64,000 nucleotides of DNA, taken from NCBI GenBank assembly GCA_002356215.1, contig AP017959.1, positions 124,001 to 188,000 of the forward strand. The letters are read 5' to 3'. Below, one piece after another: positions 44,147 through 48,775 of this stretch. The notes under the pieces are model-generated. The model was not told where the DNA came from, did not search any database, and was given only the letters and a program-made list of their open reading frames with translations. Origin of the DNA: [Synechococcus] sp. NIES-970 (GTDB taxonomy: Bacteria > Cyanobacteriota > Cyanobacteriia > Cyanobacteriales > MRBY01). The stretch's first letter is position 1; every line of letters begins with the position of its first letter. A program made the position numbers and the translations under genes.

Positions 44147-44188
44147 AAAAAGTTACTCTAAGCATGTAGTTTAGGGTAACTTTTTTTT
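44147..44188 (+). terminator. terminator after phoX
   Basis: AAAAAGTTACTCTAA and TTTAGGGTAACTTTTT form a stem with one mismatch, followed by further T. It starts 16 bases after the phoX stop. Confidence 0.8.
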
Positions 44189-44216: not shown

Positions 44217-47200
44217 CTAGGATGCTTCCGGGGTGGGAAGCTCAAAGGTGAGCTGTACATAGTTTGATTCTTCTTGATGGCGGGTACGCTGGAGTTTAGC
44301 GAGATACTTTTGGCAATCTTCCTGCCAGAAAGCAGAGGTGCCCGGGCAATTTTGATCCGTTTGCAACCAGTGTTGGAAGACGCTTTGCCGTTGATCTTCG
44401 GGTTGCTGAATATGGTAAATGCGGGTGCGTTTTTTCTGGATTGTCGTGATCTTGGTATATTTCAGCTCAAGGCCCAACAACTCCAAGAAGCGCCGCAAAA
44501 TCATGATCGGGGTGGAATTTTTCGCGAGGCCAATGCCCACAGTGGTTTTGATGGCTTCGCGGTTTTCGAGGGCGATCGCCGCCAGGTGTTGCATTTCTGG
44601 ATCTAAGTTATGGAGGGGCCGCTTACTTTGGGCAAGGAGGGTGGTGATGCCGAGAATTTCCATGGTGCCGATCATGGCCCCCAGTTGGGAATGGTTAAAG
44701 TCCGGCTGGAAAATTTGGCCACTACCCTGCTGCATCAAGTGGGTGGCAATGAGGGCATCCCGGTCGGCCAGGTAGGGGCGGCCCACCGTGAGGAAATAAT
44801 GGCGGCGTAATTTTTGGTACCACTGGTCATCATCCTTGGCGACGAGGGCGGCGGTGACGGGCAGGTTGTAGCGCTTTTGGAGTTCGTATTTGCGTAACTG
44901 TTGCTTTTCTGGGGCGGTTTTGACCAGTTTTTTCTTGAGGCGCTGATATTCTTTGATACTCAAGGGTGCGGCCTGGGCGATCGCCAGACATTCTGCTTGG
45001 TAGTTGGTGTCACGGATCGCATTGATCACCGAAGTGAGTTGATTATCCGGTTGTGTTGGGGTGGTCGTGACCTTGCGCCGCTTGGGGACGGCCACCAGTT
45101 GATGGCCTTCCCGTTGCAAGTGGGCCAGTACCGCCTCCCGGTAGTTCACCATCCCGGCGTTAATCCGTACGGCAAACTTCGCCCAGCAGAGGAGTGATTC
45201 TGCCTGAAAGTCCGTATCTAGGTCATCAAGGGCGATGAAATCCGACTGTTGTAAGAGGCGGATATTGGTTTGGGTCAAGCGCTGGCTAGAGGTGAGCAAA
45301 GCTGGAATCGAGGCGGCGCCATTCCCCACGGTATTAAAGCCATATTTAGCCACCCATAGATGGCGGGGGACATTTTCCCGCACCCGGCTCAAGGCTTGGC
45401 AAATGGAGTTTACCGCCTGCACGCCCTGGGCGATCGCCCACACCGAACTAAAGTGCCCCTTGAGGTCGAGGCTGATACCCGTTTCCACCGCTGGACTGGC
45501 TAAAACCACATCATATTGGGCGAGGGTTTGGTTAATGATCCCCATCGCCCCGTAGGCAGGATGGTTGGGGTCGGCGAGGGATTCGGCATCGAGACGGAGA
45601 ATTTTGTGGTCGGGAAATTGGTTCTTGAGATAAATTTCGAGGGTCGAAGTGCTCCACTGGCTCTTGAGCTTTTGGGCTGATAGACAGATAAAGGGCTTGC
45701 CCCCCGCTTGGATATGTTGCACCAAGTCTTTCAGCAAACGTTTGGGGGTGCCATCGGGGTAGTGGTTAAGGGTGTAATGGTTACTAGCATCTGCCTGCCA
45801 GGTATTTTCAATGAGATAGGGTTGAATTTTTTGGCCCCCGAGGGTGAGCAGATAGTCGATGGACACATCGCTTAAATCGGCATCACTGATATAAATTTGC
45901 CCTTCCCCAGCAAATACATTTTGGAGTAAATGCTTGAGGCTCTGGAGGATATTGACCCGGTTGTCCCGGCAGGTGCTGGAGTTGAGGCCATGCCAGAGGA
46001 CTTGCTCCACTTCATCGAAAATAATCAGAGCGTCGCCCCAATGGTGGGGGTTAAAGCGGGCCTGGGATTTTCCGTGGAGAGAATCGATACAGAGGCCGTA
46101 GCCATTAATTTTGAGGTTGGGTTCCTTGGAGCGGTCTTTGCCCCGGGGAAGATCCCGGATGTAGTCGAGGCCGAAGCGTTGACAAAGTTCTTCCACCAGG
46201 CGGATCCGGTGGCCAATGACGAGGACAGGCTGTTGTCTGGCGATCGCCCCAGCGACCACTGATTCGAGCCAACGGGTTTTCCCTGTCCCTTTGGGGGATT
46301 TGAGGGCGACTAATTTCGCTTCGGGGGGAATGGTCAGTTGTTCTGGGAGATAGCGTTGGTTAAGGCTTTGGTGGCGGGGATAGGTGAGCTGTTCTAGGCT
46401 TTGGGCTTTCCAAAGATCGAGGCTCAGGGCGTTTTGAAAAGCCACCTCAAAAGCCGCCTGGCCTTGGTTGGCGATCAGATCATCAACCCCTTTACCCAGC
46501 TTGCTTTCCCAGGTGATCACCTTGACCGGACAACCCGCTTGCTTGAGGAGATAACCTGTTTTGCGAATGGCACTGCGGACGGCGCGCACGGTATTCGGTT
46601 TTTCGTCCTGGTCAAAGGCAAGATAAATTTCCCGTTGCCCCCGGATTAACTTTTTTAATTGGGGGATCAGTTGGGATTGGCCGATGCGATTGCCCCATTC
46701 ATCCTTGGGCGTCCGAAATGCCCCGAAAATTCCCGGCAAGGCGATCGCTCCATAGCCCCCACTCAGGAGCGCCCCAGCTTTTTTTGCGCCTTCGGTAATG
46801 ATCAGCGGGATTTGGGGGTGCTCCTTGAGCCATTGCCAAAAGCCCCCATCAGGCTGGGTGTCGTCCCATTCTTCCTGATCAAACTCAATGTGATGACGCC
46901 GGGCAACCTGTTCCCACACATGGAGGGGGACCCGCAGGGCAAAAACACCTGTGCTGGTTTTGGGGGGATGTTCGTATTTGATTGCCTTGCCTTTTTCGGG
47001 ATTAAAGCGGGGTTGCTCCGGTTTAAAGCAGCCCCAAAGATCTTCTTTTCCAGTGAGAATGTCAACCCCAGAACACCACCAGCCCCCCGCTTCCGTGTGC
47101 TGGTAGCGCTGCAAATAGCTATCTCCAAGGCGACCATCATTACGGCGGGGCAACGCGTCTGAGTAGAGCAAATAGTCCAGGGGGCGATCGCCCTCAAGGG

Positions 47201-47267
47201 AAATAACATTCAGTTGGATGAGTTCAGGATCAACACAGCTCTGCTGCCATTCTTGAACATAATCCAT
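44217..47267 (-). CDS. plasmid-type replication protein (CyRepA1-like primase-helicase)
   Basis: 1016 residues from the ATG at 47267. An in-frame GTG at 47276 forms part of the ribosome binding site GAGGTG (47274-47279), so the ATG is the start. Numbered from that GTG: the N-terminal part has a TOPRIM-like/DUF3854 core with E162 in ITEGAKKAG, FDQDEK at 221-226 and GKGVDDL at ~261-267. A helicase core follows: Walker A SPKGTGKT (327-334), Walker B IIFDEVEQ (418-425), then VVLASPAVETGISLDL and the arginine-finger region QALSRVRENVPRH. The layout matches the cyanobacterial plasmid replication proteins called CyRepA1. It sits here on the chromosome with normal HIP1 density (six octamers), so it is a long-term resident. 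No partition or transposase gene is adjacent. Confidence 0.8.
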   Translation of the reverse strand: MDYVQEWQQSCVDPELIQLNVISLEGDRPLDYLLYSDALPRRNDGRLGDSYLQRYQHTEAGGWWCSGVDILTGKEDLWGCFKPEQPRFNPEKGKAIKYEHPPKTSTGVFALRVPLHVWEQVARRHHIEFDQEEWDDTQPDGGFWQWLKEHPQIPLIITEGAKKAGALLSGGYGAIALPGIFGAFRTPKDEWGNRIGQSQLIPQLKKLIRGQREIYLAFDQDEKPNTVRAVRSAIRKTGYLLKQAGCPVKVITWESKLGKGVDDLIANQGQAAFEVAFQNALSLDLWKAQSLEQLTYPRHQSLNQRYLPEQLTIPPEAKLVALKSPKGTGKTRWLESVVAGAIARQQPVLVIGHRIRLVEELCQRFGLDYIRDLPRGKDRSKEPNLKINGYGLCIDSLHGKSQARFNPHHWGDALIIFDEVEQVLWHGLNSSTCRDNRVNILQSLKHLLQNVFAGEGQIYISDADLSDVSIDYLLTLGGQKIQPYLIENTWQADASNHYTLNHYPDGTPKRLLKDLVQHIQAGGKPFICLSAQKLKSQWSTSTLEIYLKNQFPDHKILRLDAESLADPNHPAYGAMGIINQTLAQYDVVLASPAVETGISLDLKGHFSSVWAIAQGVQAVNSICQALSRVRENVPRHLWVAKYGFNTVGNGAASIPALLTSSQRLTQTNIRLLQQSDFIALDDLDTDFQAESLLCWAKFAVRINAGMVNYREAVLAHLQREGHQLVAVPKRRKVTTTPTQPDNQLTSVINAIRDTNYQAECLAIAQAAPLSIKEYQRLKKKLVKTAPEKQQLRKYELQKRYNLPVTAALVAKDDDQWYQKLRRHYFLTVGRPYLADRDALIATHLMQQGSGQIFQPDFNHSQLGAMIGTMEILGITTLLAQSKRPLHNLDPEMQHLAAIALENREAIKTTVGIGLAKNSTPIMILRRFLELLGLELKYTKITTIQKKRTRIYHIQQPEDQRQSVFQHWLQTDQNCPGTSAFWQEDCQKYLAKLQRTRHQEESNYVQLTFELPTPEAS

Positions 47268-47284
47268 GGGGTGCACCTCAGACG

Positions 47285-47325
47285 CTAGATGTAGGGTAAC
47301 TAAGCATACTCTACTCTATATCTAG
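47285..47325. repeat. 14-bp inverted repeat upstream of the replication gene
   Basis: CTAGATGTAGGGTA (47285-47298) and TACTCTATATCTAG (47312-47325) match in 12 of 14 positions as an inverted repeat around a 13-base spacer. It starts 18 bases upstream of the replication gene's start codon. It could be an operator for autoregulation, or an origin element. The spacer holds TAAGCAT, and the right half repeats ACTCT. Confidence 0.65.
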
Positions 47326-47452
47326 TGCGCAACTTTATTTTTAGAAAAATATTAGGAGGGATAATCAATCCCTAAGAAGCCCATGATCACGATGGCGATC
47401 GCCGCCGAAACAAGATTTGTAACGGGCAAGTCAAGGGGTCACAATCTTGCTT

Positions 47453-48775
47453 TTAGCTACCTTGGGTTGTGGCGTTTGGTGTCGTATTCGCCTGGGTTTT
47501 GGGGATTACAATCGTGCCAGTACGCAGCTGTTCGTCCAGTAGTTGAATCGCTCTGGCATACTGCGGGTCAGCCATTGTACCAATTTTTGTGCGATCATCT
47601 TGCAAACTTTCTTGGGTGGCTTCATCAAGTTCTACAACAAAATCTGGAGCGATCCCTTCTTTATTGATGTCGCGGCCAGAGGGCGTTAAATATTTCGCAA
47701 CCGTCACGGCAACCCCCGAATCATCACCCAGACGGCGCACCGATTGAACCAGCCCTTTCCCAAAGGTTTGGGTACCGACAAGCACGGCCCGTTCATTGTC
47801 TTGCAGTGCCCCAGACAAAATTTCACTGGCACTAGCTGACCCCCCATCGACCAGGACGATCAACGGTTTATCGGTGAGCGCTTTGCCATTGCTGGCTTCC
47901 TGACGGTCTACTTCCCCAACCCGATTGACTGTGGAGACAATCCCACCTCCATCGAGCCACATTTGGGCAATGTCAATGCTGGCGTAGAGCAGCCCCCCTG
48001 GGTTAGAGCGTAGATCTAGCACATAGGCATCCACACTTTGAGACTCGAGGTCAACGATCGCCTCGCGCATTTCCTCTGTGGCCTGGGCGCTAAATTGGGT
48101 CAGACGAATGTAACCGATATCTCCAATTGGGCTTTCATCAACCCTGGCGCGCACCGGATGGATCTGAATCACTTCTCGAACGATAGTAAACTCCATTTGG
48201 CGATCGCCCCGGCGAATCTGGAGCACCACCTCTGTACCCCGTTGCCCCCGGATAAGATTCACCACATCGTTGAGTTCCATATCTGCGGTAGGCTGATCAT
48301 CAACAGCGAGGATCACATCCTGGGCCATGATCCCCGCATCAAAAGCCGGGGTCTCTTCAATGGGAGCAATGACCACCACCTCATCTGTGTCGCGATCCTT
48401 CGCGATTTGGATCCCGACCCCCGTCAATTCCCCGGAGGTGTCTACCTGTAAATTCTCAAATTCTTGGGGTGGCATAAAGCGCGTGTAGGGATCCCCCAGG
48501 AGAGCCAACATTTCTCGAATCGCTTCATAAGCTTCATCGGTGCTGGCATAGTCTTGATTTAAAAACTCTTGCCGTACCTGACGCCAGTCATTTTGATTAA
48601 ACGTCGCATCAACATACTCTCTGTTAATGACATACCAAACCTCGTCTAAAATTTCCTTTGGACTGTCCTTGAGGTAGGCCTGGCTTTTCGAATAGTGGAG
48701 CCCTGCCCCTGTGACTGCCACAGTGGTTAACACTAGAGCTGTTGCACCGAGTACAAAGGGTTTAGAGTTTGACAT
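47453..48775 (-). CDS. C-terminal processing protease (S41/Ctp family)
   Basis: 440 residues. An N-terminal signal or anchor segment (~8-26, VLGATALVLTTVAVTGAGL), a PDZ domain (~125-205: LTGVGIQIAKDRDTDEVVVIAPIEETPAFDAGI), and the protease domain with LDLRSNPGGLLYASIDIAQMWL, the catalytic Ser in LVDGGSASASEILSGALQD and the Lys in GTQTFGKGLVQ. It is of the tail-specific protease group; cyanobacteria have three paralogues, one of which (CtpA) matures D1 of photosystem II. I cannot tell which this is. Exported to the periplasm or lumen. A weak hairpin lies between its stop and the replication gene. Confidence 0.87.
   Translation of the reverse strand: MSNSKPFVLGATALVLTTVAVTGAGLHYSKSQAYLKDSPKEILDEVWYVINREYVDATFNQNDWRQVRQEFLNQDYASTDEAYEAIREMLALLGDPYTRFMPPQEFENLQVDTSGELTGVGIQIAKDRDTDEVVVIAPIEETPAFDAGIMAQDVILAVDDQPTADMELNDVVNLIRGQRGTEVVLQIRRGDRQMEFTIVREVIQIHPVRARVDESPIGDIGYIRLTQFSAQATEEMREAIVDLESQSVDAYVLDLRSNPGGLLYASIDIAQMWLDGGGIVSTVNRVGEVDRQEASNGKALTDKPLIVLVDGGSASASEILSGALQDNERAVLVGTQTFGKGLVQSVRRLGDDSGVAVTVAKYLTPSGRDINKEGIAPDFVVELDEATQESLQDDRTKIGTMADPQYARAIQLLDEQLRTGTIVIPKTQANTTPNATTQGS

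Follow-up and report, generated by a model that had tools for sequence, protein, structure and literature searches.

The founding member of the CyRepA1 family, Slr7037 of Synechocystis PCC 6803, is needed to keep the plasmid pSYSA a separate replicon, and deletion of this Rep protein leads pSYSA to integrate into the chromosome (PMC9978351). Chromosomal CyRepA homologues have been reported in 80 of 145 cyanobacteria, with a function needing validation (PMC10899382). DnaA is essential in Synechococcus elongatus; PCC 7002 replicates from one site without DnaA, and the available text names no initiator for it (PMC7198777). UCYN-A and the spheroid bodies are without dnaA (PMC6315102). Here we describe a gene of this chromosomal kind in a window of 64,000 nucleotides from [Synechococcus] sp. 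NIES-970. It is a conserved chromosomal host gene of the CyRepA1 family, under purifying selection and retained in endosymbionts that have no dnaA. As far as its available text goes, PMC10899382 counts homologues without mention of clades, selection tests, dnaA or endosymbionts; relative to the open-access literature available to us, the ortholog clade, the evidence for selection and the link to the nitroplast and other dnaA-less endosymbionts are new.

The sequence-only reading of this stretch had described a CyRepA1-like replication protein that joins a TOPRIM-like primase core to a helicase core, and profile searches bear this out. The protein matches NCBIfam CyRepA1 (NF042913) at 504.6 bits, against a curated cut-off of 200, and Pfam DUF3854 (PF12965) at 173 bits (E 3.4e-51, residues 146-274); its score against the Pfam Toprim profile is below the cut-off. 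The motifs that had been named are all present, namely ITEGAKKAG with E162, FDQDEK, SPKGTGKT, IIFDEVEQ and SRVR, with residues counted from the GTG start. The gene and its regions are as follows.

44217-47276, minus strand: chromosomal CyRepA1-family gene, 1019 amino acids from GTG, 1016 from the ATG at 47267
46455-46841, minus strand: DUF3854/TOPRIM primase-like domain, residues 146-274
45072-46388, minus strand: superfamily 2 (SF2) helicase core, approximately residues 297-735
44307-45059, minus strand: C-terminal region, mostly helical, approximately residues 740-990

The start of the gene is uncertain because the ATG at 47267 is not kept in two relatives of the same genus (G004 and G005). 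Across 39 aligned sequences, E162, D222, K262, G263 and D265 of the primase-like domain are invariant, as are K333, D421 and E422 (Walker A and B) and R631 and R633 (arginine motif) of the helicase core. Domain order and catalytic residues are shared with Slr7037 and with the CyRepA1 protein of pAQ1 in PCC 7002, both annotated as CyRepA1 family like the window protein. Identity to these two is approximately 40%, and the window protein differs from them in belonging to a separate clade and in being borne on a chromosome. In addition, the 176-bp gap to ctp, which lies upstream on the same strand, is too short for an open reading frame (ORF) the size of ssr7036 (195 bp in L140), the ORF of the copy-control module of plasmid CyRepA1 genes. 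The window covers positions 124001-188000 of a contig of 2,836,539 bp (C1) in a genome of five contigs, and the gene is therefore chromosomal, as had been claimed.

The predicted structure of the protein (mean predicted local distance difference test score 85.2, predicted template modelling score 0.84) finds its best match in the Protein Data Bank in the origin-binding protein of herpes simplex virus 1 (HSV-1), UL9, with a Foldseek E of 8e-14 and a template modelling score (TM-score) of 0.34 on the query. Superposition gave a Z of 23.9 over 519 residues, at a root mean square deviation of 13.6 and approximately 15% identity, and spanned residues 284-967. In view of the TM-score and the deviation, the likeness is one of individual domains; the two chains do not superpose as a single rigid body. 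Generic SF2 helicases rank next (E 2e-8, Z ~20). A profile search also recovered the HSV-1 protein (E 1e-5, residues 309-479), and for the TOPRIM part found DnaG at a non-significant E of 0.4. UL9 is thus the closest solved fold for the helicase part, with an alignment that reaches into the C-terminal region; UL9 itself is not known to have a TOPRIM domain. DnaA is an AAA+ ATPase with a fold unrelated to that of the window protein, and any likeness to it lies in a proposed analogous role only.

Among phage protein families, the PHROG hits carry the names ‘replication’ and ‘replication origin binding’, and weaker hits the names ‘DNA polymerase’ and ‘helicase’. The strongest case for a phage or defence-island gene comes from phrog_4913 (‘replication’), which matches at E 2.9e-33, and from relatives on six viral contigs, the best of them 43% identical. 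These viral relatives are few and distant and the gene lies in a clade of genome copies, making a phage origin or defence role extremely improbable; a defence system was rejected, PADLOC giving no match.

The phylogenetic placement of the protein was examined with 139 extracted proteins plus the window protein. Sixteen names were dropped as duplicate, incomplete, broken or distant and 33 as near relatives (one name is on both lists), leaving 92 proteins, 49 of which entered a more careful tree. In the 92-protein tree, 70 genome copies formed one group with a support of 100 in the Shimodaira–Hasegawa-like approximate likelihood ratio test (SH-aLRT), and this group held none of the 13 plasmid Reps. 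Under a mixture model, the 29 members of the clade chosen for the 49-row tree again formed one group at 100/100. The window protein sits with the genome copies, apart from every plasmid Rep tested. Several members of the clade lie on megabase-size contigs, for example those of Planktothrix rubescens, Arthrospira and the endosymbionts. Within it Spirulina, Pleurocapsales, Microcystis, the Cyanothece group and Picosynechococcus each cohere; the tree mirrors taxonomy imperfectly, with Okeania and Trichodesmium apart from Planktothrix and Arthrospira. The gene is a host gene, on a chromosomal branch of the CyRepA1 family that has apparently been passed on for the most part by vertical descent. One contig filed under Candidatus Gracilibacteria (L065) carries the cyanobacterial gene, in a copy that groups with Hydrococcus, and is probably misbinned.

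Thresholds, and not a tree of every copy, were used to count this clade (clade I, 54% identity or more to the window protein with a score above 900 bits) and a second, Nostocales-like clade (clade II, 52% identity or more to the protein L050 with a score above 850 bits). Of 388 genomes sampled from the order, at least 139 contain clade I by this measure, a lower bound from matches down to approximately 871 bits, and 95 contain clade II. A class-wide search found copies of at least 54% identity in 12 of 291 genomes, all of the same order, and Synechococcus elongatus had no match over the CyRepA1 cut-off. In the four aligned clade II copies (L049-L052), the second Asp of the TOPRIM DxD is Glu (FDYE or FDFE, against FDxD in the clade I rows), so the two clades may not have the same primase-like site.

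In all pairwise comparisons among the window copy and its two closest relatives, the ratio of nonsynonymous to synonymous substitution rates (dN/dS) is 0.03-0.04; the comparison of the window copy with G004 was saturated and gave no value. The five other genomes of the genus have the gene at full length, apart from G003, where it is almost complete but has one split frame. The earlier view that it is no recent arrival, which rested on a normal density of HIP1, stood, with 1.96 per kb in the gene and 1.89 per kb in the rest of the window. Its neighbours do include phoX, ctp and cax-type genes. As for synteny, ctp, which encodes an S41 peptidase, is the only neighbour retained next to the CyRepA1-family gene in each of the five other genomes of the genus. 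The arrangement is not kept beyond the genus: across 24 clade loci no neighbour family was common to more than six, and those sharing one were mostly the four spheroid-body-type genomes.

47453-48775, minus strand: ctp (S41 peptidase)

These results bear on the suggestion that an integrated plasmid left the gene behind. In its favour, the CyRepA1 family is one of plasmid proteins, and pSYSA enters the chromosome once its Rep is deleted (PMC9978351). The gene, however, is intact and under strong purifying selection, lies inside a clade of genome copies that holds no plasmid Rep, has ordinary HIP1 density and ordinary chromosomal neighbours, and adjoins ctp throughout the genus. Among 72,556 plasmid records searched, 228 held a relative; the top-ranked of these has 49.6% identity, and none reaches 60%. 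The suggestion is already largely refuted, and we consider it very improbable.

The strongest evidence concerning function is the retention of intact copies in UCYN-A and in spheroid-body-type genomes without dnaA. Carriers include UCYN-A1-ALOHA1 (G284; 1,443,806 bp) and UCYN-A2-CPSB1 (G296; 1,491,611 bp), each a single contig and, at these sizes, each reported as a complete genome (PMC12234771). The four spheroid-body-type carriers are three endosymbionts of Epithemia or Rhopalodia (L090, L094 and L101) and one further genome that clusters with these three in the tree, Cyanobacterium sp. uoEpiScrs1 (L093); matched by coordinates, L090, L094, L101 and L093 correspond to G239, G201, G191 and G261. 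The ORF is open over its whole length in all six genomes, none of which gave a match to dnaA in sequence that, as in every dnaA search reported here, can contain masked stretches. Between UCYN-A1 and UCYN-A2, dN/dS is 0.06-0.08, towards the lower end of the values for eight neighbouring genes (0.07-0.19, by the NG86 method only), and among the spheroid-body genomes it is 0.11-0.18. Both UCYN-A copies and three of the four endosymbiont copies are among the 39 sequences in which E162, D222, K333, D421, E422, R631 and R633 are invariant, and all five keep GTGKT intact.

At least some unneeded genes have decayed in these genomes while the CyRepA1-family gene stayed intact, as psbB and psbC (PF00421) indicate. 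No full-length copy of either was found in the six: G191, G201, G239 and G296 hold fragments with stops, G261 has no match, and the one open family member of G284 (347 amino acids) resembles the extra 346-amino-acid copy of G299 and does not resemble psbB or psbC. The photosystem II core fragments of G191, G201 and G239 may serve as a decay control for retained genes.

A gene kept in organelle-like relatives that have no dnaA is a candidate for the missing starter. What the analysis shows directly is the family of the protein, its chromosomal location, its clade, purifying selection on it, its predicted fold and its retention in dnaA-less endosymbionts. The explanation that we favour is that the protein helps to start or restart chromosome replication without DnaA, a proposal that we regard as evenly balanced between right and wrong. 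Its TOPRIM (primase-like) domain, UL9-type SF2 helicase and helical C-terminal region would, by analogy with plasmid CyRepA1, recognise and open DNA and help to prime it, and the host chromosome could thereby start, or restart, replication without DnaA. Helicase and primase activity, recognition of a DNA site and the role in chromosome initiation are all predicted. The protein would act in trans and not at an origin adjoining its own gene. The sequence-only reading had offered a second replication system as one explanation; this stands as a possibility, strengthened by the retention in dnaA-less endosymbionts, and is not proven.

Several observations weigh against an initiation role. The gene is not associated with loss of dnaA among the 388 genomes, whether clade I is taken alone (19 of 64 dnaA-less against 120 of 324 dnaA-positive genomes, Fisher p 0.32) or with clade II (36 of 64 against 198 of 324, p 0.49), and an association was therefore rejected. 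The 64 dnaA-less genomes divide into 19 with clade I, 17 with clade II and 28 with neither. Twenty of those 28 have no CyRepA1 protein over the cut-off, 12 of them in family f14, which, judged by size and the lack of dnaA, is putatively Geminocystis and Cyanobacterium; 13 of the 20 are at least 90% complete, and 10 of these 13 belong to f14. DnaA-free replication therefore does not need CyRepA1 everywhere. Furthermore, no experiment on a chromosomal copy was found in the open-access literature, as far as its accessible text extends.

The DNA beside the gene was also examined for an origin. The sequence-only reading had pointed to an inverted repeat just upstream as the link to replication, and three features of this region are relevant.

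47285-47325, no strand: imperfect inverted repeat, arms 47285-47298 and 47312-47325, 12 of 14 positions paired, flanking the -10
47303-47332, minus strand: promoter-like element TTGCGC-N18-TATGCT, largely kept in six aligned genomes of the genus
47183-47345, minus strand: near-identical DNA block in the window genome and two close relatives (G000, G001 and G002), from the promoter into approximately the first 28 codons

The inverted repeat does exist, and when the 176-bp gap was shuffled 300 times a repeat of equal quality arose once. Its proposed link to replication was not supported: the repeat straddles the -10 of the conserved promoter-like element. Read by eye, the alignment shows an upstream element of the approximate form TTGCRC-N18-TATNNT kept in the genus, while the dyad itself is not kept in G003-G005; the repeat is a possible operator. 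Its arms were not found again without mismatch in 464 kb of the genome, and with up to two mismatches there were 12 matches, including both arms, against approximately seven expected. A repeat finder returned no direct-repeat family in 47200-47500, hence no iterons. GC skew, which had been proposed for mapping around 47.3 kb, makes no turn at the gene and is weak and irregular in the 20 stretches sampled. An origin beside the gene was rejected on these grounds, and there is no origin signal adjoining it.

The position of the gene in the chromosome counts against the proposal. In most of the complete genomes compared, a long distance separates it from dnaA. Within the genus it is 228-263 kb away in three genomes (with the contig of the window genome taken as a circle) and approximately 2 Mb away in G004. 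The DnaA-independent replication peak of PCC 7002 has been reported around dnaA (PMC7198777). In PCC 7117 (L053/G002), a member of the same genus used as a stand-in for PCC 7002, the gene is 231 kb from dnaA, so an origin at the gene is unlikely in PCC 7002 if the gene is placed there as in PCC 7117; a protein that acts in trans would still be compatible with this distance.

A scattered gene position and the lack of a nearby origin would suit a general trans-acting factor, such as a replication-restart or repair helicase-primase that reopens and re-primes stalled forks on a polyploid chromosome without choosing a start site. Such a role fits the same anatomy and the same pattern of retention, and would account for the lack of association between the clade and loss of dnaA. 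Most DNA-repair proteins are also kept by the endosymbionts (PMC12903740), and retention may therefore reflect DNA metabolism and not initiation alone, a further point against an initiator. Conversely, the best fold and profile matches are to an origin-binding helicase, the members of the CyRepA1 family that have been tested are, in the literature available, replicon-specific Reps, and PriA already scores above its cut-off in 14 of the 15 genomes tested. In the fifteenth, UCYN-A1, the matching stretch is masked, which makes the miss uninformative; PriA absence there was accordingly dropped as support. We consider restart or repair alone unlikely, though deserving serious attention. Sequence does not separate initiation from restart.

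The gene could also be a chromosomal helper of plasmids, serving plasmid origins in trans or setting their copy number or compatibility. That is the kind of function known for the CyRepA1 family; some carriers have CyRepA1 genes of plasmid type as well, such as the pAQ1-like copy of PCC 7117, and a small plasmid of approximately 6 kb has been reported in four Rhopalodian endosymbionts (PMC12903740). Both complete UCYN-A genomes, however, are single contigs in which the gene is intact and constrained, and the plasmid Reps tested all fall outside the clade. This explanation appears distinctly improbable.

Other observations concern the window genome and its relatives. The near-identical block runs from approximately -75 into the first 25-28 codons, and among the first 25 codons with identical amino acids 92% are identical, against 55-57% overall; it could be a regulatory element, an antisense RNA or the result of recent recombination. 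At the other end of the gene, phoX is convergent with it, tail to tail, and the two are separated by a terminator-like hairpin.

44147-44185, no strand: terminator-like hairpin between convergent phoX and the CyRepA1-family gene

The two 65-kb contigs of the same genome (L002, G000 C4; and L003, G000 C3) encode partial, distant relatives with 36% identity in the N-terminal part and 26% in the helicase part; these may be different sorts of plasmid Rep.

With regard to dnaA itself, no match to the DnaA C-terminal domain was found in Planktothrix rubescens PCC 7821 (L108, G045) or in seven of the ten listed genomes of genus f2 g53 (G135, G149, G199, G248, G269, G326 and G378), one of which (G199, L167) pairs with that strain in the tree; masked sequence could explain these absences. 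Loss of dnaA in free-living bloom-formers of this group is possible; the species that the available text of PMC7198777 lists as free-living and dnaA-less do not include them. All 11 listed genomes of family f31 (G035, G067, G085, G101, G117, G133, G147, G160, G173, G186 and G198) are likewise without a dnaA match, and carry clade II copies at 52-55% identity to L050.

Taken at its widest, the proposal would make the chromosomal CyRepA1 branch the long-sought DnaA-independent initiator of chromosome replication for many cyanobacteria, among them the nitroplast UCYN-A and the spheroid bodies of diatoms. A plasmid- or viral-type initiator would in that case have gained control of a bacterial chromosome, leaving DnaA dispensable in these lineages. 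This broader claim is tentative, and we think it somewhat unlikely. Nevertheless, the gene provides a named, conserved candidate for how chromosome replication starts in PCC 7002 and in the dnaA-less endosymbionts, and if the proposal is true, an initiator of plasmid or UL9 type would run both a bacterial chromosome and a nascent organelle.

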